From positions 1,250,144 to 1,314,143 of the forward strand of contig NZ_CP061288.1 of NCBI RefSeq assembly GCF_018687355.1: a DNA stretch of 64,000 nucleotides, read 5' to 3'. Made by a program: the position numbers and the translations under genes. Of the stretch, positions 1,350 to 16,637 are shown in pieces. Below the pieces are notes generated by a model. It was not told the DNA's origin, did not search any database, and saw nothing but the letters and a program-made list of their open reading frames with translations. Every line of letters starts with the position of its first letter. Within the stretch, counting starts at the first letter, position 1. The stretch is from Polynucleobacter sp. VK25 (lineage in GTDB: Bacteria > Pseudomonadota > Gammaproteobacteria > Burkholderiales > Burkholderiaceae).

Positions 1350-1403
1350 GTGACATACAACCTCCGATAACTGACATATAACTGTCATATAAGTGTCATA
1401 TAC
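1350..1403 (+). promoter_or_regulatory. Pho box array upstream of the H1-like/ppk2 pair
   Basis: Three contiguous 11-bp direct repeats: CTGACATATAA (1371-1381), CTGTCATATAA (1382-1392) and GTGTCATATAC (1393-1403). A fourth unit, GTGACATACAA (1350-1360), lies 21 bp, about two turns, further up. The PhoB consensus is CTGTCATAAAAC repeated every 11 bp, so the match is strong. The array reads towards the H1-like gene at 1495 and sits in the region shared with arsR. PhoB is encoded in this window. An exact -10 could not be fixed. Confidence 0.78.
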
Positions 1404-1494
1404 GCTTGAAAATAGCTTGAATAGAACGTAGGATTTGTTGAGAGCCATCTCATATTCAACAATATTTGAGCCACACATCCATATAGGAATAAAC

Positions 1495-1770
1495 ATGAGT
1501 CAAAAGAAATTGGTCAAACAGTTATTTAAAAAGCTCGATAAATTAGAGTCCGACAGAGAGAAGTTGATCGATAAGCTTGCAAAAGCATTAGAGAAGCTCG
1601 ATAAAAAAGAGGCGGCCAAAAAGACACCCGCCAAGAAAGCCGCAGTGAAGAAGGTATCAGCCAAGAAAGCTTCAGCTAAAAAAGTTGCAGCAAAGAAGGC
1701 GCCAGCTAAAAAAGCAGCGGCCAAGAAAGCCCCCGCCAAAAAGACACTCAGTCCAAGCGAAGCTAGCTGA
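1495..1770 (+). CDS. Histone-H1-like Lys/Ala-rich protein (AlgP-like)
   Basis: 91 residues. The N-terminal 35 residues form a charged amphipathic helix ([27 protein letters not shown]). From about residue 40 it is a low-complexity tail of AKKA/PAKK repeats like the C-terminal tail of histone H1, AlgP and PhaF. Such tails bind DNA and polyanions; Pseudomonas AlgP is known to affect polyphosphate granules. The start at 1495 has AGGA at 1485-1488, whereas a longer frame from 1435 has no such support. The stop overlaps the ppk2 start (TGATG), and Pho boxes lie upstream. A role in polyphosphate or nucleoid organisation is inferred from this context. Confidence 0.82.
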
Positions 1771-2543
1771 TGGGTCATAAAAATAAAGATAAGCTAGAAC
1801 AATCTAGCTATGATGAACAACTTCGCCTATTGCAAATAGAGCTAGTCAAACTGCAAAATAGTTTAATTAGCAAAGGAGATCAGATACTGGTCATCCTTGA
1901 GGGTCGTGACACAGCCGGTAAAGACGGCACTATAAAAGTCATCACCCAACACTTAAGTCCAAGAGAAACGCGTGTTGTTGCACTCGGAAAACCATCCGAT
2001 AGCGAATCTGCAGAGTGGTATTTTCAAAGATACGTAGCTGAGTTACCAAAAAAAGGGGAATTCGTACTCTTTAATCGCAGTTGGTACAACCGCGCCGGTG
2101 TTGAAGTGGTGATGAACTTTTGCACCAAGCCCCAGCATGCTAACTTCATAAATACAGTCAATGAGTTTGAGTCCATCCTAGCTAGCTCAGGCATCACTAT
2201 CCTCAAATACTATTTAGATATCTCTAAAAAAGAACAAGCCCTTCGTCTTGCAGATAGAGCGAAGGATCCGCTCAAGCAATGGAAAATCAGTCCAATTGAT
2301 CAGCAAGCGCAGAAAAACTGGAATGCTTATAGCAAGTGTAGAAATGAGATGCTAGAAAAAACTAGTACTGCAGATGCGCCTTGGATCGTTGTAAAGGCTA
2401 GCGATAAAAAAATTGCCCATTTCAATATGATTCAAGACCTGTTATCGAGAGTTACCTATCCAGGTAAAGATAAAAACCTGCTGAAGGCGAATAAAGACAT
2501 CATCTTCAAATGGGATGGGAAATTATCTAAGCTAGAAAAGTAG
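1770..2543 (+). CDS. ppk2: Polyphosphate kinase 2 family protein (copy A)
   Basis: Transfers phosphate between polyphosphate and nucleoside diphosphates, usually favouring NTP synthesis. 257 residues, one PPK2 domain. Walker A is [10 protein letters not shown] (residues 45-54). The lid/Walker B segment is [10 protein letters not shown] (101-110), with Asn102 where copy B has Asp. [10 protein letters not shown] and the C-terminal APWIVV segment are also PPK2 hallmarks. Translationally coupled to the H1-like gene by TGATG and presumably under the same Pho boxes. Convergent with the second ppk2, five bases between stops. Substrate class (ADP, GDP or AMP) cannot be assigned from the sequence alone. 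Confidence 0.9.
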
Positions 2544-2548
2544 CTTCT

Positions 2549-3454
2549 TTAGAAAACCTCAGGAACATACAGGTCCGGAGGTACTGGCCCGCGCAGATAA
2601 TCAGGGTTATGTACACGCTTAGGCAAAGTAATGACTGGGTGATCAATTTCTTTATACGGTATTTGACTCAGCAAATGCGTTATGCAGTTTAGGCGTGCTT
2701 TTTTCTTATCATTAGCAGCAACCACCCACCAAGGCGCCTCAGGTATATGCGTGCGCTCCAACATAGTTTCCTTTGCTTTGGTGTAAGCCTCCCAGAGTCT
2801 TCTGGCCTCCAGATCCATTGGGCTTAGCTTCCACTGCTTTAATGGGTCATGAATACGCATCATGAAGCGGTTGTATTGCTCATCATCAGAGATTGAGAAC
2901 CAATACTTAATGAGAATAATTCCAGAGCTGATCATCATGCGCTCAAGATCCGGAACAGTTCTGAGAAACTCTTCGTACTCATCATCGGTACAAAAACCCA
3001 TCACCTTCTCTACACCGGCTCGGTTGTACCAGCTTCTATCAAATAAAACGATCTCGCCACCAGCTGGCAGCTGGGAAATATATCTTTGGAAATACCACTG
3101 TGTTTTCTCGCGCTCATTGGGTGCGGGTAAAGCAACTACCTTACATACGCGAGGATTGAGTCGCTGAGTAATACGCTTAATGGCACCACCCTTACCCGCG
3201 GAATCTCTTCCTTCAAATAGGACCGCTACCTTTAGTTTGTTCTCTACTACCCAGTCTTGGAGTTTTACTAACTCACCCTGAAGCCTAAAGAGCTCACGGA
3301 AGTAAACATTACGTGGAATTTGCGAATGGCTGTCACCATCAGGAGAAAGGCGATCATCATCGAGCTCCATTTCAAGCTCTTCATCCATGCTGTCAAGAAT
3401 TTCCTCTTGAGCACGGCGATACCACTCGGCCATTTCTTTATGTTTTGATGTCAT
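2549..3454 (-). CDS. ppk2: Polyphosphate kinase 2 family protein (copy B)
   Basis: Second PPK2 paralogue, 301 residues from the chosen ATG at 3454, which has GGAA upstream. A longer frame to 3571 would run into the acyltransferase gene. An acidic N-terminal extension (residues about 20-45, rich in D/E) precedes the domain. Walker A is EGRDSAGKGGAI (81-92); the [10 protein letters not shown] motif keeps Asp139. Compared with copy A it is clearly diverged, so this is not a recent duplication. It lies 50 bp downstream of the acyltransferase on the same strand and may share the Pho-box promoter at 4.3 kb. Direction of catalysis and base preference unknown. Confidence 0.9.
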   Translation of the reverse strand: MTSKHKEMAEWYRRAQEEILDSMDEELEMELDDDRLSPDGDSHSQIPRNVYFRELFRLQGELVKLQDWVVENKLKVAVLFEGRDSAGKGGAIKRITQRLNPRVCKVVALPAPNEREKTQWYFQRYISQLPAGGEIVLFDRSWYNRAGVEKVMGFCTDDEYEEFLRTVPDLERMMISSGIILIKYWFSISDDEQYNRFMMRIHDPLKQWKLSPMDLEARRLWEAYTKAKETMLERTHIPEAPWWVVAANDKKKARLNCITHLLSQIPYKEIDHPVITLPKRVHNPDYLRGPVPPDLYVPEVF

Positions 3455-3504
3455 TAGCGTTCCATTCCTAGAATACTTTATAGCGAGGAAAGATGACACT
3501 TTTG

Positions 3505-4293
3505 TTACATCAAGGGTTGATTGCCTTTTAATTGATTGGAAATGGCCTCTTGGCTGTGCAAAGCAAGCCACTTGCGGTCTTTAGAAGTTTCGGGACTAGC
3601 CCCTGAAGGCGGGATAAAGCTCAACTCAACAACAATTTGGCGGTGATTCAAAATCTTTGCCATTGACTCAAGTAGTCCCATATCTCCTACAAAAGCTGGG
3701 ACCACGCTTCTGGCTCCAGAGACGGAAGAGCGGTAGGTTATTGCCAGGGAATAGACCGGAACCCGCGCAATAACAGCAGATTCAAATAAATTGGGCTTAA
3801 ACGGCAAAACGCTCTCGCCTATTGTGGAGGTTCCCTCCGGAAAGATACAGACTGACTGAGTTTTGAGCACGTCGCTAACCTCACTGGCAACCTGTCTTCC
3901 ATGACGAGCGCTATCGCGCTTAATAAATACCGTACCTAATTGTTTGGCCATCCATCCAAATACAGGCCAACTCTCCACATCTGACTTGGCTACAAAGCGA
4001 ATAGGCTTGTATGCATTAATCGCATGGATATCCATCCAGGAGATATGGTTTGATGCCAAAAGGAATGGTGTTGCAGGAAGCATCCCTTGGTGAATTACTC
4101 TGAGATCGATTCCAAAAATATTGAGCAATCTCATAGACCAAGCTTGGATCAATTGATTTTTAAGCCTCTGATCAGCAAACGGAAAACGAAAAGATAAGGT
4201 TACCAAGCCAGCAATGACGTGGGCCCACACCCTTACCCAAGAGCAAGCTATAGATCCAGCAGGTTGTCGTTTTAATGGTTGACTCTGATTCAT
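3505..4293 (-). CDS. PlsC/OlsA-like lysolipid acyltransferase
   Basis: Inner-membrane-associated acyltransferase of the PlsC family, 262 residues. The catalytic HX4D motif is His83-ISWM-Asp88, and FPEGTS (151-156) contains the substrate-binding Glu-Gly. An N-terminal hydrophobic stretch (about 20-38) anchors it. Family members either make phosphatidic acid (PlsC) or add the second acyl chain to lyso-ornithine lipid (OlsA). An OlsB-like protein lies 2.4 kb away and Pho boxes lie in the divergent promoter, so OlsA is the more attractive reading. That is inference. Divergent from the PlcP-like gene, 102 bp apart. Confidence 0.88.
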   Translation of the reverse strand: MNQSQPLKRQPAGSIACSWVRVWAHVIAGLVTLSFRFPFADQRLKNQLIQAWSMRLLNIFGIDLRVIHQGMLPATPFLLASNHISWMDIHAINAYKPIRFVAKSDVESWPVFGWMAKQLGTVFIKRDSARHGRQVASEVSDVLKTQSVCIFPEGTSTIGESVLPFKPNLFESAVIARVPVYSLAITYRSSVSGARSVVPAFVGDMGLLESMAKILNHRQIVVELSFIPPSGASPETSKDRKWLALHSQEAISNQLKGNQPLM

Positions 4294-4331
4294 ATAGCTG
4301 AAATATAAATCAAGTTATGAAATTAATTCCG

Positions 4332-4389
4332 CCGTCATAAAACTGCCTTAGAACTGTCACTCTAGTTTCACACTCAGCAGGCTTAATAC
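4332..4389 (+). promoter_or_regulatory. Pho box and -10 in the acyltransferase/plcP-like divergent promoter
   Basis: 11-bp units in phase: CCGTCATAAAA (4332-4342), CTGCCTTAGAA (4343-4353), CTGTCACTCTA (4354-4364), and a weaker GTTTCACACTC (4365-4375). They match the PhoB consensus CTGTCATAAAA/CTGTCAC. A -10-like TAATAC follows at 4384-4389, six bases before the ATG at 4396. PhoB control of the plcP-like operon, and perhaps of the divergent acyltransferase, is inferred. Confidence 0.7.
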
Positions 4390-4395
4390 TGTTTC

Positions 4396-5205
4396 ATGAT
4401 GCATTACAAAGCCATCTGGATTTCAGACGTACACCTGGGAACATCAGGGTGTCAGGCAGACTACCTTCTTGATTTCCTAAAGCATAACGAAGCGGATAAA
4501 TTCTACCTAGTTGGCGACATTATTGATGGCTGGAGACTGAAAAAGTCTTTCTACTGGCCGCAAACACACAATGACGTTGTTCAAAAACTGTTACGTAAGG
4601 CCCGTAAAGGCAGTGAAGTGATCTATGTTCCTGGCAATCATGACGAAAGCGCTAGACAGTTCTTTGGACTCTCTTTTGGTGATGTAAAAGTAGTTGAAGA
4701 AGTCATTCATACAACGGCAGATGGCAGAAAGCTATGGGTAACGCATGGCGATCAGTTTGATGGTGTGATGCAATACGCCAAGTGGCTTGCCTACGTTGGT
4801 GACAACCTATATTCGTTCATCCTCTATGTCAATCGCTACTTCAATATGGTCCGCGCCAGGATGGGGCTGCAATATTGGTCCCTGTCTCAATATCTGAAGC
4901 ACCAAGTAAAGAACGCAGTCAGCTATATCGCCGACTTTGAACACATCATGGCCAGAGAGGCTCGCTTAAGAGGCTGCGATGGCGTTGTGTGCGGCCACAT
5001 ACACAAAGCAGAAATTCGTGAGATCGATGGACTGCTGTATTGCAACGATGGTGATTGGGTCGAAAGCCTCTCCGCCTTAGTTGAAACACAGACTGGCGAA
5101 CTCAAAATTATTTACTGGACGCATATCAAGGGTGAGCCAGTAGAAGCCCCTCAAATTACCCTTCAACCTGCTATCGAATCACTTATCAAAGAGGCTGTGC
5201 TATGA
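4396..5205 (+). CDS. LpxH-type metallophosphoesterase, probable phospholipase C PlcP
   Basis: Calcineurin-like metallophosphoesterase of 269 residues. Metal ligands are seen in SDVHLG (Asp11, His13), GDIIDGW (Asp41), GNHDE (Asn81, His82), THGDQFD (His117) and CGHIHKAE. Automatic annotation usually calls this family UDP-2,3-diacylglucosamine diphosphatase (LpxH). However, the Pho-regulated PlcP of rhizobia and marine bacteria, which strips headgroups from phospholipids to give diacylglycerol, belongs here and is typically followed by a GT4 gene, as it is in this window. The stop overlaps that gene by ATGA. PlcP is favoured by context, not proven. No ribosome binding site precedes the start. 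Confidence 0.85.
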   Translation: MMHYKAIWISDVHLGTSGCQADYLLDFLKHNEADKFYLVGDIIDGWRLKKSFYWPQTHNDVVQKLLRKARKGSEVIYVPGNHDESARQFFGLSFGDVKVVEEVIHTTADGRKLWVTHGDQFDGVMQYAKWLAYVGDNLYSFILYVNRYFNMVRARMGLQYWSLSQYLKHQVKNAVSYIADFEHIMAREARLRGCDGVVCGHIHKAEIREIDGLLYCNDGDWVESLSALVETQTGELKIIYWTHIKGEPVEAPQITLQPAIESLIKEAVL

Positions 5206-6230
5206 AAATTATGATCATCACCGATGCATGGGATCCACAGGTTAACGGCGTTGTCCGAACACTTAAACAAACTCGTGCTGAATTAACTGCCATGGGTCAT
5301 GAAGTAGAGATGATTACGCCAACGGGCTTTAAATCGATTCCTTGCCCAACGTATCCCGATATCGCCCTCTCACTCTTTCCAGGCAAAGAAGTGGCTCGTC
5401 GCATTAAAGAATTTGCTCCAGATGCAATGCATATTGCTACAGAGGGACCATTAGGTTTATCTGCCCGCGCCTATGCGGTAAAGAATCGCTTACCGTTCTC
5501 TACCGCGTATCACACACGCTTCCCCGAATATGTCAAAGCGCGCACCGGCATCCCATTGGCAATTACTTATGCGTTTATTCGCTGGTTCCACGGCCCGTCA
5601 ATGGCTGTGATGGCACCAACTATTGTCGTTAAAGATGATTTAGAGAAATATGGCCTCAAGAATGTGGTGTTGTGGTCCAGGGGTGTAGATCTCGATATTT
5701 TTAAGATGCAAGATTCAAAAGCCTTAAACACTGCTCACCCGATTTTCTTGTATGTGGGCCGAGTTGCTGTTGAGAAAAACATCAATGCATTCTTAGAAAT
5801 TGATTTGCCAGGTTCAAAGTGGGTGGTAGGAGACGGTCCAGCAATGGCTGGCATAAAAGAAAAATACCCAGAAGTGAATTATCTGGGAATACTACAGCAG
5901 CATGAGTTAGCAAAAGTGTATGCAGCAGCAGATGTATTTGTATTTCCTAGCAAGACCGATACGTTTGGATTAGTTCTACTTGAGGCAATGGCTTGCGGTA
6001 CGCCAGTTGCAGCCTATCCAGTAACTGGTCCGATTGATGTCTTAGGGAACTCTAATTCGGGCGCCATGAATGAAGACTTGCGCGAAGCGTGCTTGCAGGC
6101 ACTCAAGATTCCTCGTGAGGTTGCACGCGCACATGCAGAGAAGTTCTCCTGGAGAGCAGCTTCAGAGCAGTTTGCCAATCACCTCAAGCCAGTGCCGACT
6201 ACAGAAGTTCACGTTACTGCGCTTGCTTAA
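5202..6230 (+). CDS. GT4 glycosyltransferase, probable diacylglycerol glycosyltransferase (Agt-like)
   Basis: GT-B fold, family 4, 342 residues. The N-terminal Rossmann domain opens with MKIMIITDAWDPQVNGVVRT. The C-terminal donor domain carries YVGRVAVEKN, GDGPA and SKTDTFGLVLLEAMACGTPV. The first acidic residue of the EX7E motif is Asp, as in several MgtA/Agt relatives. Overlaps the PlcP-like stop by four bases. In phosphate-starved bacteria, PlcP-derived diacylglycerol is glycosylated by such an enzyme to make phosphorus-free glycolipids. Acceptor and sugar donor are inferred from context. A mannosyltransferase acting on another lipid remains possible. Confidence 0.88.
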   Translation: MKIMIITDAWDPQVNGVVRTLKQTRAELTAMGHEVEMITPTGFKSIPCPTYPDIALSLFPGKEVARRIKEFAPDAMHIATEGPLGLSARAYAVKNRLPFSTAYHTRFPEYVKARTGIPLAITYAFIRWFHGPSMAVMAPTIVVKDDLEKYGLKNVVLWSRGVDLDIFKMQDSKALNTAHPIFLYVGRVAVEKNINAFLEIDLPGSKWVVGDGPAMAGIKEKYPEVNYLGILQQHELAKVYAAADVFVFPSKTDTFGLVLLEAMACGTPVAAYPVTGPIDVLGNSNSGAMNEDLREACLQALKIPREVARAHAEKFSWRAASEQFANHLKPVPTTEVHVTALA

Positions 6231-6239
6231 AGAAAGTTC

Positions 6240-6647
6240 ATGTTGAACACTCCATATCATATCGACCAAAACCCCCACAAGGGTAATCGCGGTCTTGCCA
6301 GAGCATGGCATGCAGCGAAGAACTCTTGGTGCGGGTTGGTTTATGCATTTATGGAAGAAAGTGCTTTTAGGCAAGAGCTCACTTTATTTGCATTGTTAAC
6401 ACCGGTCGCCTTTTTTCTACCGATATCACTGCTAGAGAAAGCATTACTGGTTTCTTCATTAGTAATGGTTCTCGTCATTGAGCTACTGAACTCTAGTGTA
6501 GAAGCAGCAATCGATCGCATCTCGTTCGAACATCATGATCTTTCAAAGCGAGCAAAAGATTTTGGTAGTGCTGCCGTCATGCTTGCTCTATTTGTGGCGG
6601 CCCTGCTCTGGGCTGCAGTTTGTATCCCTGTAATCCTCAAGCTCTAA
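6240..6647 (+). CDS. dgkA: Diacylglycerol kinase
   Basis: Small integral-membrane kinase that converts diacylglycerol to phosphatidic acid using ATP. 135 residues with three membrane segments. Family signatures are EESAFRQE (near residue 40), VIELLNSSVEAAIDR (the catalytic stretch with essential Glu and Asn) and SKRAKDFGSAAV. Nine bases after the glycosyltransferase stop, so in the same transcript. In this setting it can return diacylglycerol released by the PlcP-like enzyme to the phospholipid pool when phosphate is restored, or limit its accumulation. Confidence 0.95.
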   Translation: MLNTPYHIDQNPHKGNRGLARAWHAAKNSWCGLVYAFMEESAFRQELTLFALLTPVAFFLPISLLEKALLVSSLVMVLVIELLNSSVEAAIDRISFEHHDLSKRAKDFGSAAVMLALFVAALLWAAVCIPVILKL

Positions 6648-6681
6648 ACCATTTTTTGAATTTCATCCTCCAAGGCTAACT

Positions 6682-7605
6682 ATGTCTGATATCCCTAATC
6701 CAATCGGCTCATTTGAGATTTTCGCTCCTAAAAAGGTCAAGGCCTTAAAAAGAAAGAAGCCAAATACCTTTCAAAAACTCTCAAAAAAGTTAGCTAAGAA
6801 ACTTTTTGGCAAGAAGTTTGTCACCAAGACAAGGGCTGAGCTCAGAGAAACGGATATCACCCCCGCTATTCAGATAGATAAACCCAAAAAACCTGCATTT
6901 AAAATTATTTGGGCAAGCACCCCAGGCGAGATTAAAGAAGCACAAAGACTACGTTACAAAGTGTTTGCGGAAGAAATGGGTGCGAATCTCCCAAGCAATG
7001 CAGAACGCTTAGATATTGATGAATTCGATGCTTATTGCGATCACTTATTAATCCGCGATCAAGACAGCTTAAAGGTTGTTGGAACCTACCGCGTACTGCC
7101 ACCACATAAAGCCCAAGAGATTGGCCGCCTCTACTCCGATTCTGAGTTTGATCTTTCCCGCATTGACCACCTGCGCCCTAAATTGGTTGAGTTAGGTAGA
7201 TCCTGCGTACACCAAGACTATCGCTCAGGCGCTGTAATCATGGCTCTCTGGAGTGGTTTGGCACAATATATGCAGAAGAACGGATATGAAATCATGCTGG
7301 GCTGCGCTAGCATCCCCATGGCTGATGGTGGCCACTTTGCGGCGAGTCTTTATAACTCCCTAGGCAATGATCAAATGGCGCCTACAGAATTCCATGCCTT
7401 CCCGCGTCTTCCATTGCCTCTTGATAAATTAAATGGCGGCTTAGATGTTCAGCCCCCACCATTGATCAAAGGCTACCTAAAGCTAGGAGCAAAAATTTGT
7501 AGCGCTCCAGCCTGGGATCCAGACTTTAATACAGCCGACTTATTAACAATGCTGCGCCTATCAGAAATCAACCCACGTTATGCAAAGCATTTTCTTGGCT
7601 TGTAA
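6682..7605 (+). CDS. OlsB-like GNAT acyltransferase (ornithine lipid synthesis)
   Basis: 307 residues. The first 75 are strongly basic and low-complexity (KKVKALKRKK, KKLAKKLFGKK). The rest matches the hemolysin/OlsB branch of the GNAT fold: AQRLRYKVFAEEMGA, VVGTYRVLPP, VELGRSCVHQDYRSG, LGCASIP. OlsB joins a 3-hydroxyacyl chain from ACP to ornithine, the first step of ornithine lipid synthesis. It is last in the plcP-agt-dgkA run, 34 bp after dgkA, and is followed by a terminator. The basic N-terminal extension is longer than usual and may bind membrane. OlsB function is inferred from family plus the OlsA-like neighbour. Confidence 0.83.
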   Translation: MSDIPNPIGSFEIFAPKKVKALKRKKPNTFQKLSKKLAKKLFGKKFVTKTRAELRETDITPAIQIDKPKKPAFKIIWASTPGEIKEAQRLRYKVFAEEMGANLPSNAERLDIDEFDAYCDHLLIRDQDSLKVVGTYRVLPPHKAQEIGRLYSDSEFDLSRIDHLRPKLVELGRSCVHQDYRSGAVIMALWSGLAQYMQKNGYEIMLGCASIPMADGGHFAASLYNSLGNDQMAPTEFHAFPRLPLPLDKLNGGLDVQPPPLIKGYLKLGAKICSAPAWDPDFNTADLLTMLRLSEINPRYAKHFLGL

Positions 7606-7622
7606 CTTGGGGATTAACCAAT

Positions 7623-7655
7623 AAAAAAGCCACTTCATAAGGAAGTGGCTTTTTT
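7623..7655. terminator. Bidirectional terminator between olsB-like and ppx
   Basis: Perfect stem GCCACTTC / GAAGTGGC (7629-7636, 7642-7649) with loop ATAAG. It is flanked by an A-run before and a T-run after, so it can terminate both convergent genes. Confidence 0.93.
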
Positions 7656-7700
7656 ACTTCTTGTTATTTCTAATTGTTTCTTACTATCTCTTCATTCCTC

Positions 7701-9263
7701 TTATTTGAGGCTGACTTGATAAGAGCGACCCACCCTTTCCCATTCAGCCGCCTCCTTAAGAAGGCTAAATTCTGTGAGGGGATGTTCGGTGGCCCACTCT
7801 TTAGAGAGGCTGACGAAATAAGATCCATCCTTCTCAGAAACTTTGACCTTGGGAAGATTTGTATCGCTTCGACCGCGGCAGAGGACCTGGGCCAACCTTA
7901 GACAAAAAAGCATGCGCCAGTCTTCAAAACTAGGGTTATTAGCCAGTTTTCCCAACTTACCGGTGTGTCCGATCAATAAAGCAGCGAGTCTAGCCTGGTC
8001 ATTTTTAGAGAAGCCTGGCATATCGGCATTGCCCGCTATATAAGCCGAGTGCTTGTGATATCCATTATGAGAAATAGATAAGCCGATTTCATGGAGATTG
8101 GCGGCCCACTGCAATAGTGCTACGTTATCTGCTCTACTTTCGGATTCTGGCTTAGGAAGATGCTGCAGAAAATCTGCCGCTAATTTACCAACCCTATCAG
8201 CTTGCTCACGATCAACGGCATAACGTTGCATAAATTGCTCAACAGTGACATAACGCATATCGTGATGTTGTGAGCGACCAAGTAGGTCATACAAAACGCC
8301 GCTACGTAATGCGGCATCAGTAACTTCCATTTCGTTAATGCCTAATTCATCAAATGCTGCCAGCATAATTGCTAAACCGCCTGGCCAAACCATTCTTCTG
8401 TCATCTTTTAAACCAATGAGCTCCACTTGATTTACATGCTCGTACTTCAGCAAGTGTTTTTTGAGATTCTTTAAGCCTTCACGAGTAATCAGACCACTAG
8501 CACCATTAACACGGCCCATGGTTAAACCATCGCCCTGACCATTGAAGTTGTTGTTAGCAATCAGTTCCGCTAAAGCTCTGGCAGTTCCAGAGGAGCCTAT
8601 GACTTGATTCCAGCCACTTTTAAGATACGCACCTGAAATGACCTGGATTTCACGGCGAGCAGCCAATTCTGCCTCTTTAAATGCGTGCGCATCGATATTT
8701 CCTTTTGGGAAAAAACGCATGCTGTGTGAGACGCAACCAATATAGAGACTTTCCATCAGCTTTGGCTCATAACCTTTACCAATAATGAATTCAGTAGAAC
8801 CACCACCGATATCAATGACTAGTCTATTACCCTGAACGGCTGGAACTTCATGCGCCGCTCCAATGTAAATAAGGCGAGCCTCTTCTACCCCAGCAATGAC
8901 TTCAATTGGAAATCCTAGAGCCTCCTCCGCATCCGTTACAAATTGCTGCGCATTCTTAGCAACGCGCAAAGTATTGGTGGCGACGGCTCGAACATGAGAA
9001 GGATCGAATCCACGAATACGTTCGCCAAAACGCCGAATAGTAGTTAAACCTCTTTGATAGGCATCATTACCAAGTAATTTATTCTCAGTAAGGCCAGCGG
9101 CCAGACGTACTGTCTCACGTAAAGTATCTATGGGACGTAGCTGGGTACCAGAAGGCGTATTTACCGCCTGAGCTACCAGCATACGAAAACTATTTGACCC
9201 TAAATCAACCGCAGCCACGAGGTCTGCGGAAGTTACTGAAGGATCTACGGTATTGCTGGCCAA
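7701..9263 (-). CDS. ppx: Exopolyphosphatase, Ppx/GppA family
   Basis: Removes terminal phosphates from polyphosphate; homologues also hydrolyse pppGpp. About 520 residues. The N-terminal ASKHA ATPase-like domain carries VAAVDLGSNSFRMLVAQ, VATNTLRVAKN and the IDIGGGSTEFI phosphate loop. The C-terminal half (after about residue 310) is the HD-like helical domain. The start is uncertain: TTG at 9263 has GGGGA at good spacing, and a TTG at 9275 adds four residues. Placed between the lipid-remodelling operon and phoR, it balances the two PPK2s. A weak Pho-box-like pair lies upstream. Confidence 0.92.
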   Translation of the reverse strand: MASNTVDPSVTSADLVAAVDLGSNSFRMLVAQAVNTPSGTQLRPIDTLRETVRLAAGLTENKLLGNDAYQRGLTTIRRFGERIRGFDPSHVRAVATNTLRVAKNAQQFVTDAEEALGFPIEVIAGVEEARLIYIGAAHEVPAVQGNRLVIDIGGGSTEFIIGKGYEPKLMESLYIGCVSHSMRFFPKGNIDAHAFKEAELAARREIQVISGAYLKSGWNQVIGSSGTARALAELIANNNFNGQGDGLTMGRVNGASGLITREGLKNLKKHLLKYEHVNQVELIGLKDDRRMVWPGGLAIMLAAFDELGINEMEVTDAALRSGVLYDLLGRSQHHDMRYVTVEQFMQRYAVDREQADRVGKLAADFLQHLPKPESESRADNVALLQWAANLHEIGLSISHNGYHKHSAYIAGNADMPGFSKNDQARLAALLIGHTGKLGKLANNPSFEDWRMLFCLRLAQVLCRGRSDTNLPKVKVSEKDGSYFVSLSKEWATEHPLTEFSLLKEAAEWERVGRSYQVSLK

Positions 9264-9303
9264 AATTTTCCCCAAGAATGGAATGCTGCATCAATTATGT
9301 CTA

Positions 9304-9325
9304 TTTTATGTACAAAAGGTGACAC
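9304..9325 (-). promoter_or_regulatory. Weak Pho-box-like repeat upstream of ppx
   Basis: On the minus strand GTGTCACCTTT (9325-9315) is followed in 11-bp phase by TGTACATAAAA (9314-9304). The first unit fits PhoB sites well, the second only partly. The position, about 40-60 bp before ppx, suits an activator site, but the match is below that of the pstS and PPK2 sites. Confidence 0.3.
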
Positions 9326-9374
9326 ATTGATGAAATCAACAGCAAGCCTTTATGACTGGGGCAGCCAACGCTAA

Positions 9375-9584
9375 TTAGGCAGCTAAGTTTTGCTCTGAGC
9401 TTGAACAATCACGATTACCAAAGCTACACAAAATGCAGCAATCACCAGACTTTGGCTTCAAGATAGCACTGCAAGAACGACAGCGATACAGATGCTGGGC
9501 ACCCTCTTCAGAGCTGATGATTTCAGAGGCTTGGCAATGGGGGCAAGTAACAATCGATTGCAGATGGTTGATGGTCTTATTCAC
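9375..9584 (-). CDS. Small GDCCxxC-motif cysteine-rich protein
   Basis: 69 residues. Two CxxC pairs (CPHCQ, CRSC) resemble a zinc ribbon and are followed by GDCCILCSFGNRDC. This is the GDCCxxC (GDCCVxC) domain family, some members of which carry selenocysteine in the GDxC motif; here all positions are ordinary cysteine codons. Function is not known in the family; a redox or metal-handling role is plausible. It sits alone between ppx and a small Lys-rich gene. Nothing else in the window points to a partner. Confidence 0.75.
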   Translation of the reverse strand: MNKTINHLQSIVTCPHCQASEIISSEEGAQHLYRCRSCSAILKPKSGDCCILCSFGNRDCSSSEQNLAA

Positions 9585-9717: not shown

Positions 9718-9939
9718 ATGAATATGAGCAAATATCTATATGAAGACGCAGTAAAACAACTGCAAGAATCTGGCGGCATTAGCCTGGTGGATTTGAAAAA
9801 CCTTCCCCATGAAGATCTTGTCGAGTTATTAGAGGAAATTAAGGTTTGGTGCCTCTATGCCAATGGCAAAACAGATAAGCTGCCTAAAGAATCCAAAAAG
9901 AAGAAGAAAAAGAAGAAGGATTCAGAGAAGAAAGATTGA
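9718..9939 (+). CDS. Small hypothetical protein with lysine-rich tail
   Basis: 73 residues, or 71 from the second ATG at 9724. A folded-looking acidic first part (YLYEDAVKQLQESGGISLVDLKNLPHEDLVELLEEIKVWCLYA) is followed by a tail of mostly lysine (KESKKKKKKKKDSEKKD). I do not recognise a family. Its stop is three bases from the convergent phoR stop. The amphipathic Leu/Glu-rich N-terminus and sensible codon use favour a real gene. No clear ribosome binding site is visible. Given its location inside the Pho block, a link to phosphate or polyphosphate is possible but unsupported. Confidence 0.55.
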   Translation: MNMSKYLYEDAVKQLQESGGISLVDLKNLPHEDLVELLEEIKVWCLYANGKTDKLPKESKKKKKKKKDSEKKD

Positions 9940-9942
9940 GTT

Positions 9943-11241
9943 TTAAGCAGTCACTCGGTCTTTAGGGAAGCGCAGCATAAATTTACTACCTCTTCCGGGA
10001 GTGCTCTCTATAACCAGTTGAGCTTGATGTCGATTGGCAATATGCTTAACAATAGCCAAGCCTAAACCAGTACCGCCAGTATCCCTTGAGCGGCTCCTAT
10101 CTACACGATAAAAGCGCTCTGTTAACCGGGATAAATGCTCAGATGCAATTCCTGGGCCAGTGTCTGTAACCGCGAACTCGCCCTGCCCCTGATCATTTAT
10201 CTTCCACTCAACGCCGATCGATCCAACATCCGGCGTATAGCGAATTGCATTGGAGACTAGATTACTAAATGCAGAGAGTATTTCTCTTTCATCACCCAAT
10301 AAGTTCTGCTGTGAATTTACGTCGAAGTTAAACGAATGTTTGCCTTGAGAAAGTGCTTCAGCGTCATTCTTCAGCAGCGCCATCAAGGTCTCAACCTTAA
10401 CTACTGTGTTTATGGCCGGCAATGCATTGGATTCTAGATTGGCAAGAGTCAATAAGTCCTCAACCAGGCTTTTCATTCTCTGGGCCTGAGACATCATCAT
10501 GTCAAAGTATTGATCCTGCTGGTCTTTCTTGAGATCTAAGGACTGAACAGTCTCCAGAAAGCCCATCAAAACAGTGATTGGTGTGCGCATTTCATGGGAA
10601 ACGTTAGCCACGAAATCGCGGCGCATCGCATCCGCTTTTTGCAAATCCGTGACGTCCTGCACCAAAAGAAGATGGCGCCTTTGGCCGAAGGGAAAAGCTT
10701 GCAACATCAAGCTTAAGCTGCCATCAGGCCCCATACGCTCCATTAACAGAGGTTCTTCAAAATTACGCTTATTGAGATACTGTATGAATTCAGGGCGACG
10801 AATTAAAAAATTAATGCGCTGCATGACATCGCGCTTAAAGATTAATCCAAAGAATCGCTCGGCAATACTATTGCACCACTCAATTTGGTCGCTTTCATCG
10901 AGCATAACGATGCCGTTTGGAGAGGCTTGGAATGCCTCAATAAAGTGCTCGTGCTGCTGCTCAATACTTCGGATATGTTGCTTTAGATTTCTAACTAAGC
11001 GCTGAAGTCTAAAAAACACTTCTTCCCAAAACCCGCTTGGTAAGGGCATATTTTCGACAGAATCAGCAAGGGTATATTTTCTAAGGCGCGCTAAGTTAAT
11101 GTAAGCGTACACAAGTGGAATGGAAAGAACGGAAATTCCGACTGCTATAGCCCACTCCGCACCCCATAAGGACAATGTTGTAAACGCCAATACAAATGCG
11201 ACGCAAATAATGACGAAGAAACGGGTGAGAACGGATAGCAT
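9943..11241 (-). CDS. phoR: Phosphate-regulon sensor histidine kinase
   Basis: Membrane kinase that phosphorylates PhoB when phosphate is scarce; PhoU and the Pst transporter relay the signal. 432 residues. Two N-terminal membrane helices (about 5-25 and 29-47) have almost no periplasmic loop, typical of PhoR. A PAS domain (about 100-200) precedes the H-box FVANVSHEMRTP with His216. The ATPase domain shows NAIRYTP, DTGPGI and GTGLGLAI. Last gene of pstSCAB-phoU-phoB-phoR, 64 bp after phoB. A short ATCTCC/GGAGAT inverted repeat lies in that gap. Confidence 0.95.
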   Translation of the reverse strand: MLSVLTRFFVIICVAFVLAFTTLSLWGAEWAIAVGISVLSIPLVYAYINLARLRKYTLADSVENMPLPSGFWEEVFFRLQRLVRNLKQHIRSIEQQHEHFIEAFQASPNGIVMLDESDQIEWCNSIAERFFGLIFKRDVMQRINFLIRRPEFIQYLNKRNFEEPLLMERMGPDGSLSLMLQAFPFGQRRHLLLVQDVTDLQKADAMRRDFVANVSHEMRTPITVLMGFLETVQSLDLKKDQQDQYFDMMMSQAQRMKSLVEDLLTLANLESNALPAINTVVKVETLMALLKNDAEALSQGKHSFNFDVNSQQNLLGDEREILSAFSNLVSNAIRYTPDVGSIGVEWKINDQGQGEFAVTDTGPGIASEHLSRLTERFYRVDRSRSRDTGGTGLGLAIVKHIANRHQAQLVIESTPGRGSKFMLRFPKDRVTA

Positions 11242-11305
11242 GATGCAATATTAGAGCATCTCCAAAAATCCCCGGAGATTCCCAATAAAATCGTTAAATA
11301 CAGGC

Positions 11306-12019
11306 TTAAGTTTCGGTTGGGGTCTTGGTGATGCGGTAGCCGCTGCCACGTACGGTCTCAACGTAGCGGTCGCAATCAAAAGGGGCTAGTGCTGCCCTTA
11401 AGCGCTTAATGTGAACGTCGACTGTTCTTTCTTCAATATAGACTTCACTACCCCATACCTTATCCAATAAACTGCCACGAGAATGAACCCGCTCAGGATT
11501 AGCCATAAAGTACTGAAGCAAACGGAATTCGGTTGGCCCCAGGGCGATAGATTTAGGCTCAATATTAGGCCAAACTGCCAATACACGGTGAGAGCTCGGA
11601 TCGAGTTTTAACGGACCAACGGTTAGTGGGCCAGTGTCTTCAATAGGCATCTGCCTACGTAGTATTGCCCTTACCCTAGCCACTAACTCTTTAGGTGAAA
11701 AAGGTTTGGTAACGTAATCATCCGCTCCTGAATCAAGGCCCAGAACCTTATCGGACTCTTCACTCTTGGCGGTCAGCATCAAAATCGGCAATGCCTTAGT
11801 ACGTTCATTAGAGCGCAACTCTTTTGCAAACTGAACCCCTGATTTACCAGGCAACATCCAATCCAGAATAACCAGATTAGGAAGCTGATCTTTCATCATT
11901 GCCAAAGCAAGATCCGTCTGCATCGCCTTTTCTACCTCGTACCCCGCATGGGACAGGTTAATCGCAATCAATTCTGCAATTGATGGCTCATCCTCAACTA
12001 TGAGTATGCGGTGAGTCAT
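11306..12019 (-). CDS. phoB: Phosphate-regulon response regulator
   Basis: OmpR-type regulator that binds Pho boxes. 237 residues. The receiver domain has acidic pocket Glu9-Asp10, phosphoacceptor Asp53 (ILDWMLPG) and Lys105 (TKPF). The C-terminal winged helix ends with ERTVDVHIKRLRAAL and GSGYR, the DNA-contacting helix and wing. Encoded between phoU (15-bp gap) and phoR, it is the predicted user of the Pho boxes at 1.4, 4.3 and 16.6 kb. Confidence 0.96.
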   Translation of the reverse strand: MTHRILIVEDEPSIAELIAINLSHAGYEVEKAMQTDLALAMMKDQLPNLVILDWMLPGKSGVQFAKELRSNERTKALPILMLTAKSEESDKVLGLDSGADDYVTKPFSPKELVARVRAILRRQMPIEDTGPLTVGPLKLDPSSHRVLAVWPNIEPKSIALGPTEFRLLQYFMANPERVHSRGSLLDKVWGSEVYIEERTVDVHIKRLRAALAPFDCDRYVETVRGSGYRITKTPTET

Positions 12020-12034
12020 TATCAGAGGCCCTAT

Positions 12035-12742
12035 TTATTGTCTATTTGCTTCGCGGACTAAATCTTCATGCGGGATATGGCGAACATCAGATCCCTTAGC
12101 AATGTAGATCACGAACTCTGCAATATTTTTAGCATGATCACCGATACGCTCAATAGCCTTGGCAATCGTCAGCATATCCAGGCCTGTACTGATCATATGC
12201 GGATCTTCAGACATATAGGTAATGAGCTTGCGCACAAAGCCTCTGAATTCTTCGTCAATCTGACGGTCTTCTTGAACCACATCAGCTGCCGCAATAGTAT
12301 CTAAGCGCGCAAAAGCATCAAGACTGCGACGCAACAAAGAAATCGCCATCTGACCTGATAAGCGAATCTCTGCAACGTTAATGTTGTGCGGTAAACCAGA
12401 TTCAATTAAGCGCTTGGTACGCTTAGCTACACGTTCAGCCTCATCGCCAGCGCGCTCAAGATTTGTAATCGCTTTTGATACTGCCATGACGAGACGCAAA
12501 TCTCGCGCAGTAGGCTGTCTGCGTGCGATCAATTCGGTGCAAGCTAAATCAATCTGAATTTCAAGATCGTTAACTAACTTTTCATTTTCGATTACAACAT
12601 TGCAAGTTTCGGCGTCCATTTGTGTAAATGCGCGCATCGCTGTGGCAATCTGTGACTCTACAAGACCGCCCATCTCAAGCAAGCGGCTTGAAAGAGAGTT
12701 AAGGTCTGCATCAAACTGTGATGATAGGTGTTTATCTGGCAT
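12035..12742 (-). CDS. phoU: Phosphate-signalling complex protein PhoU
   Basis: Cytoplasmic all-helical protein that links the Pst transporter to PhoR and keeps the Pho regulon off in high phosphate. About 235 residues, two three-helix bundles. Each bears the metal-binding E/DxxxD-type motif: LERAGDEAERV in the first half, IERIGDHAKNI in the second. The ATG at 12742 has GGAG seven bases upstream and is preferred to a TTG at 12754. Twelve bases downstream of pstB. Confidence 0.95.
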   Translation of the reverse strand: MPDKHLSSQFDADLNSLSSRLLEMGGLVESQIATAMRAFTQMDAETCNVVIENEKLVNDLEIQIDLACTELIARRQPTARDLRLVMAVSKAITNLERAGDEAERVAKRTKRLIESGLPHNINVAEIRLSGQMAISLLRRSLDAFARLDTIAAADVVQEDRQIDEEFRGFVRKLITYMSEDPHMISTGLDMLTIAKAIERIGDHAKNIAEFVIYIAKGSDVRHIPHEDLVREANRQ

Positions 12743-12754
12743 GTGTGTCTCCAA

Positions 12755-13603
12755 TTAACCGAAGCGGCCGGTAATGTAGTCTTCTGTTTCTTTACGCTTA
12801 GGCTTAATAAATATCTCGTCAGTTTTGCCATACTCAATCAGGCTACCTAAATACATATAGGCCGTATAGTCAGATACACGAGCTGCTTGCTGCATATTAT
12901 GAGTCACGATCGCAATCGTGTAATCCTTTTTAAGCTCATGAATCAATTCCTCCACTTTACCGGTGGAAATGGGGTCCAAGGCAGATGTTGGCTCATCCAA
13001 CAAAATGACTGAAGGCTTTACAGCTACACCACGGGCAATACACAAACGCTGTTGCTGGCCACCAGAAAGAGATAAACCGCTCTGATTTAACTTATCTTTT
13101 ACTTCATTCCACAGCGCCGCCTTATTTAATGCCCACTCTACACGCTCATCCATTTCGGAACGTGAGAGCTTTTCATAAAGACGTACACCAAAGGCGATAT
13201 TTTCGTAGATCGACATTGGGAATGGGGTTGGCTTCTGAAAAACCATACCAATGCGTGAGCGCAGGAGATTTAAGTCTTGGCCTGGCTCAAGAATATTCTG
13301 CCCGTAGAAATTGATCTCACCTTCTGCACGCTGACCAGGATAGAGGTCATACATCCGGTTTAAGGTTCTCAGAAGGGTTGATTTTCCGCAACCAGAAGGC
13401 CCGATGAATGCAGTGACCTTACCTTGCTCAATATCTAAATTGATCTTTTTTAAGCCTTGGAATGCGCCGTAATAAAAATTCAGATTACGCACTTCAATAG
13501 CATTGATTGCCGCATTTTGCGGTTCTTGGTTTATTGCGTCCACTCTACCCCCTTGACTATCAACCTGATTCAAGTCAAACATTGTTTTCATATTACTCAT
13601 CAT
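12755..13603 (-). CDS. pstB: Phosphate ABC transporter ATPase PstB
   Basis: Energises high-affinity phosphate import through PstCA. 282 residues from the ATG at 13603, which overlaps the pstA stop (ATGA); in-frame ATGs at 13600 and 13591 are alternatives. A longer frame to 13687 lies inside pstA. Walker A is GPSGCGKST, the Q-loop [10 protein letters not shown] is typical of PstB, the signature is LSGGQQQR and Walker B is VILLDEP. A short unconserved leader (about 35 residues) precedes the ABC domain. Confidence 0.95.
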
Positions 13604-14466
13604 CCCTGCACCTTCTCTCGGAATACCACACGAGCAAGGATATTTAGCCCTAGCACTGCAAATGTAATCAGCAACGCGCCACCCCAAGCAAGATCAACCC
13701 AGTTGTCGTAGGGACTCATTGCAAATTGGAATATCACCACTGGCAAGTTCGCCATTGGCGCATTCATATTGGTTGAAAAGAATTGGTTATTTAAGGCGGT
13801 AAACAACAAAGGCGCTGTTTCACCGCTAACACGTGCCAGGGCAAGCAAGATACCCGTCATCACACCACTTTGTGCAGCACGAAGCGTGATCATGAATGCC
13901 ACTTTCCACTTTGGTGTGCCAAGCGCATAAGCAGCTTCACGCAAACTACCTGGAACCAAACGAAGCATATTCTCAGTGGTACGCACAACAACCGGTATTG
14001 CAATTAAAGCCAAAGCAATGGTGCCAGCCCAACCAGAGAAGTGACGAACCTGCGCAACCACGAAGGCATAGACAAACAAACCAATAACGATTGATGGAGC
14101 AGACAACATAATGTCTGTTACAAATCGAGTAATTGCAGCAACCTTGCTACGATCGCCATACTCCGACAGATACAAGCCTGCAAGGACGCCAACTGGCGTA
14201 CTAATCAATGTACAGCAGCCAATCAGCATTAAGCTGCCAACAATCGCATTTGCTAAACCGCCGCCATCAGATCCCGGAGCTGGCGTGCTGTGTGTAAAGA
14301 GGTCCAAGTTAATTGAGGAGAATCCTTTAATTACCAAGACACTCAGAATCCAGAACAAGAAAATCATTCCCAGGCCCATGGCGAACATGGACAGGGTAAG
14401 GCCGATCTTGTTGGCACGCTTGCGACGAGCAAAAACTTCTGGATTGATATTGGTTGCCTTGTTCAT
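13600..14466 (-). CDS. pstA: Phosphate ABC transporter permease PstA
   Basis: Inner-membrane channel subunit, 288 residues, six membrane helices. The ABC-permease coupling loop reads [41 protein letters not shown] is the usual PstA segment. Overlaps pstC by ATGA at its start and pstB by ATGA at its end, so pstC-pstA-pstB are translationally linked. Confidence 0.95.
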
Positions 14467-15461
14467 GATTTCAGGCCCTGCTTCTTCTCCATATTATTTA
14501 GCATCCACTTAGCGCATGCCAAAACAATGAAGGTAATAATAAATAGTGCGAGTCCGAGTGCAAATAATGAGGAAAGGTGATTACCTGCTTCAGCCTCACC
14601 AAATTCGTTTGCCAATGTAGATGCAATCGACGTGCCCGGTGCAAATAAAGATGGGGACAAGCGCTGCGCATTGCCAATTACGAAGGTCACTGCCATGGTT
14701 TCACCAAGCGCCCTACCCAAGCCCAGCATCACGCCACCAATCACACCAGCCTTGGTATATGGAAGCACTACGTTCTTAACCACTTCCCAGGTTGTGCAGC
14801 CAATACCGTAGGCAGACTCTTTAAGAACCGGTGGAACGATCTCAAATACGTCGCGCATCACTGAAGCAATAAACGGCAGAATCATCATTGCCAGAATTAA
14901 TCCAGCACAGAGAACGCCAATGCCATTGAAAGCGCCAGAAAATAAAATACCTAATCCTGGAATTTTGCCTAGAGTTGCCGCAAGTGCTGGCTCTATGTAT
15001 TCAGCAAACAAAGGAGCAAAGATGAATAAACCAAACATGCCATAAATGATTGATGGAACTGCTGCCAATAACTCTACCGCTGTACCTAATGGACGACGCA
15101 AAGGACCTGGACAGAGTTCTGTCAGGAATACCGCAATGCCAAAGCTTAGAGGTACCGCAATTAGCAAAGCAATAATGGATGTAGCCAAGGTGCCATAGAT
15201 GGCAATCAAGCCACCGAACTCACCATTCACAATGTCCCACTCTTGAGTAAAGAAAAATCCTAAACCAAAAGTATTTAGTGCGGGCCATGCATTGATCACC
15301 AGGGAAATGATGATGCCTAATAAGGCAATCAATACCGAACAGGCAAAGAACTGGGTAATGCCGTGAAATAAAAAGTCTTGAACTCGCTGAATCTTAGCGA
15401 TTCGCAGCGCCTGAGGCGTTGGGGCTGAATGAGATTGAGCGTTATCGATCATCGTTTGCAT
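14463..15461 (-). CDS. pstC: Phosphate ABC transporter permease PstC
   Basis: Second channel subunit, 332 residues (329 from an in-frame ATG at 15452). Six membrane helices follow a short cytoplasmic N-terminus. The coupling loop is [26 protein letters not shown], and [18 protein letters not shown] is characteristic. It is separated from pstS by 74 bp that contain a hairpin, whereas the rest of the operon is tightly packed. Confidence 0.95.
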
Positions 15462-15475
15462 ATATTTATACAGCC

Positions 15476-15503
15476 AAACAGCCCCACCTTAGTGGAGCTG
15501 TTT
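15476..15503 (-). terminator. pstS-pstC intercistronic hairpin (attenuator)
   Basis: In the minus-strand transcript a 12-bp stem forms between AAACAGCTCCAC and GTGGGGCTGTTT with a four-base loop and one G-U pair. There is no proper U-run after it. Such hairpins after binding-protein genes protect the pstS message and reduce read-through, giving PstS excess over the membrane subunits. Role inferred. Confidence 0.6.
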
Positions 15504-15535
15504 GTTATCTCAGTAAACAAGTAAATTTGCAAAAT

Positions 15536-16558
15536 TTACTTAGTCGCAATCTTATTGAAAACATTCTTGCGAATGAAATCAGTTGTTTTGTCAGGCATTG
15601 GAACGTAATCCAAGTCTTCCGCCATCTTCTTGCCGTCTTTGAATGCAAAGTCAAAGAACTTAAGTACTTCAGCAACGTTAGCTTTGTTCTCTGGATTCTT
15701 GTAAATCAAGATAAATGATGCGCCAGTAATTGGCCATGATTTGGCACCAGGAGCATTGGTAATAAATGTTCCCATGCCTGGAATTGCTGCCCAATCTGTA
15801 CTTGCAGCAGCTGCAGCAAATGTAAGGTCGTCAGGAGCAACAAATTGACCATCTTTATTCTTCATGGAAATGAAGGTCATTTTGTTTTTCTTGGCATATG
15901 CATATTCAACGTAACCAACAGAGTTCTTCACGCGAGTTACGTTTGCCGCTACACCCTCGTTACCCTTGCCACCTACTGTTGAGGCTGCAGGCCACTTAAC
16001 AGAAGCGCCAGAACCTACGCCGTCTTTAAACAAAGTACTTGTTTTAGCTAGGTAGTCAGTAAAGATCGCTGTAGTACCAGAACCATCAGCACGCACAACC
16101 ACAGTAATTGGGCCGCTAGGAATCTTTACGCCTGGGTTCATGATGGCGATACGCTTATCACCCCAATCAGAAATCACACCTTGGAAAATGTCTGCCAATG
16201 TTGGGCCGTCCAACTTGATTTCACCTGGCTTAACACCATCAACGTTAATCACTGGAACAACACCACCAATAATCGCTGGGAACTGAACCAAGCCATCTTT
16301 TTCTAAGTCATCAAATTTCACTGGATTGTCTGTTGCACCAAAATCCACTGTTTTTGCTTTGATCTGCTTAATGCCACCGGATGAACCGATAGACTGGTAA
16401 TTTAAGTTTGAACCAGTTTTAGCTTTAAATGCTTCTGCCCATTTGGCATAAATTGGGTACGGGAATGTTGCGCCTGCGCCAGTCATATCTACGGCAAATG
16501 CCGCTGGAGCTAGTGAAATAGCACCAATAACGAGGGCTTTTTTCAAGAAAGATTTCAT
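15536..16558 (-). CDS. pstS: Periplasmic phosphate-binding protein PstS
   Basis: High-affinity phosphate receptor for PstCAB. 340 residues with a Sec signal peptide (MKSFLKKALVIGAISLAPAAFA, cleavage likely after residue 22). Phosphate-contacting segments are GAGATFPYPIY, IGSSGGIKQI, and VVRADGSGTT. Typical length for proteobacterial PstS. First gene of the operon and preceded by a good Pho box, so strong induction on phosphate starvation is expected. Confidence 0.96.
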   Translation of the reverse strand: MKSFLKKALVIGAISLAPAAFAVDMTGAGATFPYPIYAKWAEAFKAKTGSNLNYQSIGSSGGIKQIKAKTVDFGATDNPVKFDDLEKDGLVQFPAIIGGVVPVINVDGVKPGEIKLDGPTLADIFQGVISDWGDKRIAIMNPGVKIPSGPITVVVRADGSGTTAIFTDYLAKTSTLFKDGVGSGASVKWPAASTVGGKGNEGVAANVTRVKNSVGYVEYAYAKKNKMTFISMKNKDGQFVAPDDLTFAAAAASTDWAAIPGMGTFITNAPGAKSWPITGASFILIYKNPENKANVAEVLKFFDFAFKDGKKMAEDLDYVPMPDKTTDFIRKNVFNKIATK

Positions 16559-16615
16559 TTATTCAGTCCTTAAATTGAATATGCGCAACAGCGCGATATA
16601 AGAACAATAAGGCGG

Positions 16616-16637
16616 CAATATGACAGCTATGTGACAC
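16616..16637 (-). promoter_or_regulatory. Pho box upstream of pstS
   Basis: Minus strand: GTGTCACATAG (16637-16627) directly followed by CTGTCATATTG (16626-16616), two 11-bp units close to the PhoB consensus. They lie 58 bp before the pstS start. TTATAT (16601-16596) or TATTGT (16609-16604) could be the -10. Confidence 0.8.

Follow-up and report, generated by a model that had tools for sequence, protein, structure and literature searches.

A PhoB-marked supercluster of phosphate import, storage and lipid-remodelling genes in Polynucleobacter

In the classical arrangement of phosphate genes, pstSCAB-phoU-phoB-phoR stand together with ppk1-ppx. Lipid remodelling by PlcP and Agt under PhoB is a second known system, occurring in marine heterotrophs, Agrobacterium, Pseudomonas aeruginosa and Methylosinus; according to excerpts of the work on marine bacteria (PMC4796936), on P. 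aeruginosa (PMC8528852) and in PMC9239053, plcP adjoins an agt-like gene, a Pho box is present, and glycolipids replace phospholipids at low phosphate. Here we describe a 15-kb block (positions 1350 to 16637) in a stretch of 64,000 nucleotides from Polynucleobacter sp. VK25 (the window), in which genes of both systems adjoin each other. Compared with the classical arrangement, the block has the same genes except ppk1, which in ppk1-bearing relatives lies beside ppx toward phoR (14 loci); its PPK2 genes are at the other end of the block, and lipid genes are joined on. Compared with the PlcP-Agt systems, it shares plcP-agt and the Pho box and adds dagK and olsB in the same direction, with pst-pho, ppx and ppk2 genes adjoining; the section of PMC4796936 on plcP neighbourhoods, as far as it was available, mentions no such fusion.

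We propose, with a probability of about 0.78, that this block is a phosphate-homeostasis supercluster of Polynucleobacter, switched on by PhoB at low phosphate through five promoters: those of pstS, of a gene for a histone H1-like protein together with ppk2A (H1-ppk2A), and of plcP, ppk2B and ppx. Judged from its sequence, the supercluster is real, conserved and PhoB-marked, and larger than first noted. Its first half reads H1-ppk2A(+), ppk2B(-), olsA-like(-), plcP-agt-dagK-olsB(+) and ppx(-), and its second half a GDCCVxC protein gene(-), a small open reading frame (ORF)(+) and phoR-phoB-phoU-pstB-pstA-pstC-pstS(-). Genes were called by Pfam and NCBIfam profile matches with curated cut-offs (Table 1), and these matches support the gene list of the original prediction (pstSCAB-phoUBR, ppx, two ppk2 genes, an H1-like gene and a lipid set), with the OlsA, OlsB and H1 matches below their cut-offs. 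The two PPK2 proteins score 334 and 372 bits against TIGR03707 (cut-off 302). As in published PlcP-Agt loci, a calcineurin-like phosphoesterase gene adjoins a GT4 glycosyltransferase gene in the window, in the genus and in all 12 outgroup loci described below.

A 20-bp PhoB matrix was trained on pstS promoters only, taken from the 30 closest and 20 more distant genomes (49 of the 50 promoters were used; L149, with 5 mismatches, was dropped). Both strands of the window were scanned with this matrix, and the whole genome with consensus patterns only. The top scores in the 64 kb are 26.8 at 1382(+), 24.2 at pstS, 20.9 at 1371(+) and 17.5 at 3491-3510(-), followed by 12.9 at 4332(+), 10.0 at 9317-9336(-) and 9.5 at 4354(+). 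Seven positions in the block score at least 9.5, compared to none between 16661 and 64000 (47 kb; maximum 8.65) and a mean of 0.4, never more than 2, when the block was dinucleotide-shuffled 100 times. The comparison with random AT-rich DNA that was proposed at the outset thus comes out in favor of the boxes. The matrix also places the boxes before H1, plcP and pstS within a few bases of where they had been noted; these three promoters stand, while the count of three does not, as ppk2B and ppx bring it to five. At least two 11-bp direct repeats TGTCAY-N5, the mark of a Pho box, are found in the promoter.

Throughout the 2.00-Mb genome, CTGTCAT-N4-CTGTCAT with at most 1 mismatch occurs at 3 places, two of which overlap at the H1 promoter; the third (C1:1331576) was rejected as a Pho gene site, being inside an ORF. 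The pstS box has 2 mismatches and is one of 5 such places. A further matrix site (C1:1011931, 16.8) was rejected as a promoter since it lies between two ORF ends, with no same-strand gene after it in the 3 kb fetched.

Boxes were also counted in relatives, at a score of at least 8 within 160 bp upstream of genes with an aligned start and at least 120 bp of upstream sequence. Such boxes precede plcP in 88 of 89 loci (L045 has no plcP upstream), ppk2B in 73 of 76, ppx in 61 of 80 and an alkaline-phosphatase-like gene (phoA-like) in 28 of 33; for pstS the count is 11/12, which is not independent of the matrix training. They are rare before ppk1 (3/14), arsR (3/11) and a second ArsC-like gene (arsC2, 1/34), and were never found before plsC (the olsA-like gene, 0/87), agt (0/89), dagK (0/88), phoR (0/33), phoB (0/30), phoU (0/28), pstB (0/22), pstC (0/11), mgtC (0/35), a DUF2252-like gene (0/38) or a tautomerase-like ORF (0/16). 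Shuffled upstream regions pass in 0 to 1.6% of cases (ppk2B 0.8%, ppx 0.5%). In 77 loci the four half-sites of the plcP array keep the same distance from the ATG, and their columns are 89% identical on average compared to 68% for the rest of the span. A box of its own was considered for olsB, which has one in 42 of 87 relatives, yet it is absent in the window (-10.3). The count for ppk2A in relatives (1/74) is void because H1 intervenes and loci without ppk2A hit ppk2B.

Gene order is also conserved across related genomes. Of 78 loci, 63 are at least 14 kb long, and all of these but L068 and L077 (61 of 63) have an uninterrupted core (olsA-like, plcP-agt-dagK-olsB-ppx). In 119 genomes with both genes on one contig, plcP and pstS are 10.3-23.9 kb apart (median 16.0); these pairs were compiled by hand among the matches listed, leaving out pairs on different contigs and taking the better match where there were two PstS. 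All 12 outgroup loci, which represent ten further genera of the family, have plcP-agt, and dagK follows in 11; the 12.5-19.9 kb fetched per locus showed no olsB, ppx or pst, and the sole pho matches are two-component matches of 31-33% in L250. The fusion is therefore a feature of the genus, and the packing originally called unusual is so by comparison with these loci; its description as a single unit does not hold, as strand and spacing point to about six transcription units. In 7 of the 12 outgroup loci, weaker sites (at least 8 in 450 bp) lie 212-353 bp before plcP, a hint that PhoB control of this gene may be older. As a separate observation, G034 has stop codons in ppk2A, plcP and pstS, and single locus genes are broken in G031, G035, G036, G071 and G141, a possible sign of locus decay in reduced genomes.

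Gene content, conserved box arrays and synteny were read from the DNA, and the regulatory and enzymatic course that would follow is modelled on known families. Low phosphate, read via PstSCAB and PhoU, would act on PhoR and lead to activation of PhoB, which at its boxes would recruit RNA polymerase. Pst would then import more phosphate, PlcP would strip head groups off phospholipids, Agt would convert the resulting diacylglycerol to glycolipid, DagK would recycle any excess diacylglycerol into phosphatidic acid, and OlsB and the OlsA-like enzyme together would make ornithine lipid; such lipid replacement would free membrane phosphorus. PPK2 enzymes and Ppx would run the polyphosphate store, with reliance on PPK2 after a presumed loss of ppk1 in the host lineage. 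The block thus probably acts together as a low-phosphate survival kit. According to excerpts of two papers, fresh water harbours Polynucleobacter in very high numbers (PMC7522526) and is commonly limited in phosphorus (PMC4940451). A conserved locus for import, storage and lipid replacement leads to the prediction that lipids and phosphorus content of the cells change with supply.

A whole-genome search found no ppk1 in the host, a single contig of 2,000,070 bases. The window was taken as genus Polynucleobacter; among the 80 closest plcP loci, 78 have Polynucleobacter titles or are betaproteobacterial metagenome bins, and the other two are alphaproteobacteria. Within the genus, ppk1 is present in 53 of 186 genomes, and it lies beside ppx, toward phoR, in 14/14 loci (L187 ends before phoR, and some loci are from the same species). 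Homologs of ppk2B (E <= 1e-110) were identified in 142 of the 186 genomes, namely 116/133 without and 26/53 with ppk1, and homologs of ppk2A (E <= 1e-85) in 126 genomes, 105/133 without and 21/53 with ppk1 (Fisher p 6e-7, with no correction for kinship). Mutual exclusion with ppk1 was rejected for both genes, as 21 genomes have both ppk2A and ppk1 and 26 have both ppk2B and ppk1. Neither ppk1 nor ppk2B was found in 17/186 genomes, including some on a single contig with about 99% completeness, so that certain species may be without any of these polyphosphate kinases. PPK2-only bacteria are known, since the single polyphosphate kinase of Francisella tularensis is a PPK2 according to an excerpt of PMC4748334. 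In L214 and L215 all three kinases stand in a row (ppx-ppk1-ppk2A-ppk2B-phoR), an arrangement that we read as a likely intermediate. A box precedes ppk2B in 10 of 20 ppk1-bearing genomes (20 of 26 such genomes were fetched), which suggests that ppk2B was partly under PhoB before it came to adjoin the olsA-like gene.

The two PPK2 proteins differ in their motifs. PPK2A has GKDG and [FL]NRSWYN in all 120 listed homologs (the best 120 of 7,999 scored candidates), and PPK2B has GKGG and FDRSWYN in all 93 rows with both motifs readable; the motif count that gave these 93 rows leaves out 5/53 ppk2A and 7/100 ppk2B rows without a motif and includes the host genome several times. In eight genomes of other genera, nine class I-type proteins have GKGG/FDRSWYN and five class III-type proteins GKDG/FNRS[HY]YE. 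The residue after Walker B is a class signature, Asn in class I and Glu in class III, according to the part of PMC8776046 available. PPK2B has the motifs and the equivalog score of class I. PPK2A has Walker residues of class III type together with the Asn that marks class I, and lacks the GKGG and FDRS residues of class I; its PDB matches (3CZQ and F. tularensis PPK2) point to class I affinity, and its assignment to class III was rejected because of the Asn in place of Glu. In a tree of 13/14 PPK2A, 7/7 PPK2B and 14/16 other rows requested, PPK2A forms a single clade (98/99) that falls on the side of class I, with class III separate (100/100), although the program warned of a long branch (L288) beside PPK2A. 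The class III-type Walker residues of PPK2A look convergent, and the mixture is fixed in this one Polynucleobacter clade.

A doubtful but reasonable alternative is that ppk2A encodes a non-working kinase, turned by the Walker B Asp-to-Asn change into a scaffold that binds polyphosphate and acts as partner to the H1-like protein. For F. tularensis PPK2, a magnesium-holding role of the Walker B Asp has been proposed (excerpt of PMC4748334), and PPK2A shares the Asn found in PDB sequence 5LLF where 5LL0, the same enzyme, has Asp. We infer that 5LLF is a deliberate inactive variant; a literature search for D117N found nothing. However, GKD and FNRS also occur in the five class III-type PPK2s of other genera, activity is known for class III enzymes (PMC8776046, in the same part), and the motifs are kept in every one of the 120 homologs.

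A lysine/alanine-rich ORF lies directly 5' of ppk2A in 45 of 51 loci (four loci cut at the gene were excluded; the misses are L107, L128 and L214-L217). Membership of its product in the HC2 family was rejected, as it scores 33 bits with PF07382 (cut-off 40) and 34.6 with NF038053 (cut-off 80). It resembles AlgP, a histone H1-like granule protein of P. aeruginosa (PMC9239181, excerpt), in its lysine/alanine-rich basic tail and its link to PPK2, a likeness of composition and context; it differs in its length of 91 amino acids, in a different conserved N-terminus and in its position directly before a PPK2 gene with a PhoB box. The pI is 9.4 for PPK2A and 5.9 for PPK2B. In the same excerpt, only basic kinases were seen on granules in Ralstonia, and the pI rule is imperfect in P. 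aeruginosa. Being basic and coupled to the H1-like protein, PPK2A is probably the granule-bound form. Tentatively, PPK1 may have been exchanged for a PhoB-driven PPK2 storage machine, in which a translationally coupled H1-like scaffold and a hybrid PPK2 would build or hold granules and phosphorylate both AMP and ADP from them, at one locus with import, sensing and membrane-phosphorus recycling; moves of the kinases within the locus, with the three-kinase intermediate, could then represent regulon building by gene relocation. The absence of ppk1 with PPK2 in charge, together with a fixed hybrid PPK2 and its H1-like partner, would make this a clean system for finding out which PPK2s make polyphosphate in living cells.

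The H1-ppk2A promoter differs in design from the others. The pstS, ppk2B and ppx boxes each stand 10 bp before a -10-like element, unlike the H1-ppk2A box, which is 5' of a complete -35/-10 promoter (TTGAAA-17-TAGGAT). H1-ppk2A could accordingly be driven by another regulator in place of PhoB, or by PhoB and ArsR jointly, as the divergent ars genes share the H1 region (start of arsR at 1314, opposite strand) and loci with the pair far from the core keep one half-site and the same core promoter. We consider this improbable, since the genome's two best consensus matches are at the H1 promoter and the full box, at a score of at least 8, is present there in 22 of the 23 genomes in which the pair adjoins the core.

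It is quite improbable that the genes stand together by ancestry, with only pstS and perhaps plcP responding to PhoB and the other boxes being chance TGTCA repeats in AT-rich promoters: the consensus at up to 3 mismatches is indeed common in the genome (125 matches compared to 81 for a reversed control), ppx has the weakest box (score 10.0 here, 61/80 relatives) and the H1-ppk2A core promoter of the far group persists without the full box, but 73/76 ppk2B and 61/80 ppx upstreams pass, against 0.8% and 0.5% of shuffled ones, and eleven neighbouring genes give zero. Chance repeats as the source of all the boxes are likewise rejected by matrix, shuffles and conservation footprints.

Several points weigh against a supercluster under PhoB. 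The full H1-ppk2A box is missing from all 17 genomes where the pair is at least 9.6 kb away or on another contig, and is present in 5 of 10 further loci that belong to neither the near nor the far group, a split that is our reading of coordinates. This box is not genus-wide, and the near/far difference may reflect one evolutionary event. The plcP boxes have 3 mismatches, a level at which the match counts given above, for the genome and the reversed control, leave them unconvincing from the host genome alone; the box question was settled by the matrix and the conservation footprint in relatives. Among the relatives, 19/80 ppx and 5/33 phoA-like upstreams miss the threshold, and all box counts are uncorrected for kinship, with some species occurring twice (L187-L197, L214 and L215 partly repeat L001-L078). 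The OlsB-like and OlsA-like proteins have OlsB and OlsA as best families, both under the equivalog cut-offs, and PlcP and Agt are candidates named by family and context. Granule binding of PPK2A is suggested by pI and neighbour, and pI is not fully predictive in P. aeruginosa (PMC9239181, excerpt).

Among open-licence papers we found none on Polynucleobacter plcP and, in the parts available of those on the Polynucleobacter Pho regulon, nothing on the present locus. Polynucleobacter ppk2 is already in print in two genome notes and a proteome study, as far as their excerpts show. The parts are thus known, and the combination and the PPK2A-H1 pair appear new as far as the accessible open-licence literature goes.

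Table 1. Features of the block, with positions in the window and the evidence for each.
Feature	Position	Strand	Evidence
PhoB-type box, three 11-bp half-sites, H1-ppk2A promoter	1371..1401	+	matrix 26.8 (1382), 20.9 (1371); genome's best consensus match
sigma-70-like TTGAAA-17 bp-TAGGAT, 3' of H1 box	1406..1434	+	sequence; similar motif in most ppk2A loci
H1-like lysine-rich protein, 91 aa (amino acids), pI 10.4	1495..1770	+	PF07382 33 bits, cut-off 40 (below); K/A-rich
ppk2A, class I-type PPK2, GKDG and FNRSWYN	1770..2543	+	TIGR03707 family; start overlaps H1 stop (TGATG)
ppk2B, ordinary class I-type PPK2 (GKGG, FDRSWYN)	2549..3454	-	TIGR03707 372 bits
PhoB-type box of ppk2B, TATAAA 10 bp downstream	3491..3510	-	matrix 17.5
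OlsA/PlsC-like acyltransferase	3505..4293	-	PF01553; NF052553 128.5 bits, cut-off 300 (below)
array of four PhoB half-sites, plcP promoter	4332..4375	+	matrix 12.9 and 9.5
plcP candidate, calcineurin-like phosphoesterase	4396..5205	+	PF12850/PF00149; adjoins agt as in published plcP loci
agt-like GT4 glycosyltransferase	5202..6230	+	PF13439, PF00534
prokaryotic diacylglycerol kinase (dagK)	6240..6647	+	PF01219
OlsB-like ornithine N-acyltransferase	6682..7605	+	PF13444; NF052554 175.6 bits, cut-off 350 (below)
ppx exopolyphosphatase	7701..9275	-	PF02541, PF21447, TIGR03706 309 bits, cut-off 307
PhoB-type box of ppx, TAAAAT 10 bp downstream	9317..9336	-	matrix 10.0
phoR sensor kinase	9943..11241	-	PF11808, PF00512, PF02518
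phoB response regulator	11306..12019	-	TIGR02154 323 bits, cut-off 296
phoU	12035..12754	-	PF01895
pstB	12755..13612	-	PF00005 and position
pstA	13600..14466	-	PF00528 and position
pstC	14463..15461	-	PF00528 and position
pstS	15536..16558	-	PF12849
PhoB-type box of pstS, TATTGT 10 bp downstream	16618..16637	-	matrix 24.2; not independent, pstS sites are the training set

In many relatives ppx and phoR are separated by an island, absent from the window, with MgtC-like, alkaline-phosphatase-like (own box 28/33), DUF2252-like, tautomerase-like and second ArsC-like genes (for example L001:15216-20232; the named models are below cut-off). In the window this gap is filled by the GDCCVxC-domain protein gene, 9375-9584(-), and the small lysine-rich ORF, 9718-9939(+); relatives have ppk1 or the phosphatase island in the same place. 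A scan of small ORFs with PADLOC gave no useful result. A clustered phoA was looked for in the host genome and is absent; a distant homolog (C1:1977682, 34% identity) has no own-strand box (maximum 1.4 in the locus fetched).

The ars genes at window positions 1-1314(-) comprise arsR, an ArsC-like low-molecular-weight (LMW) phosphatase gene and an ORF read as an Acr3-type permease, which is cut by the window edge. They diverge from the H1 promoter, with the arsR start on the opposite strand. Since arsenate is a phosphate analogue, the shared ars/H1 region may couple arsenic defence to phosphate control. Downstream of the pstS box, and before the start codon, lies a palindrome GCGC-N4-GCGC at 16583-16594(-) that could form a hairpin in the leader; pstS upstreams in L135-L186 have a similar palindrome, with letter changes on both sides in many relatives.

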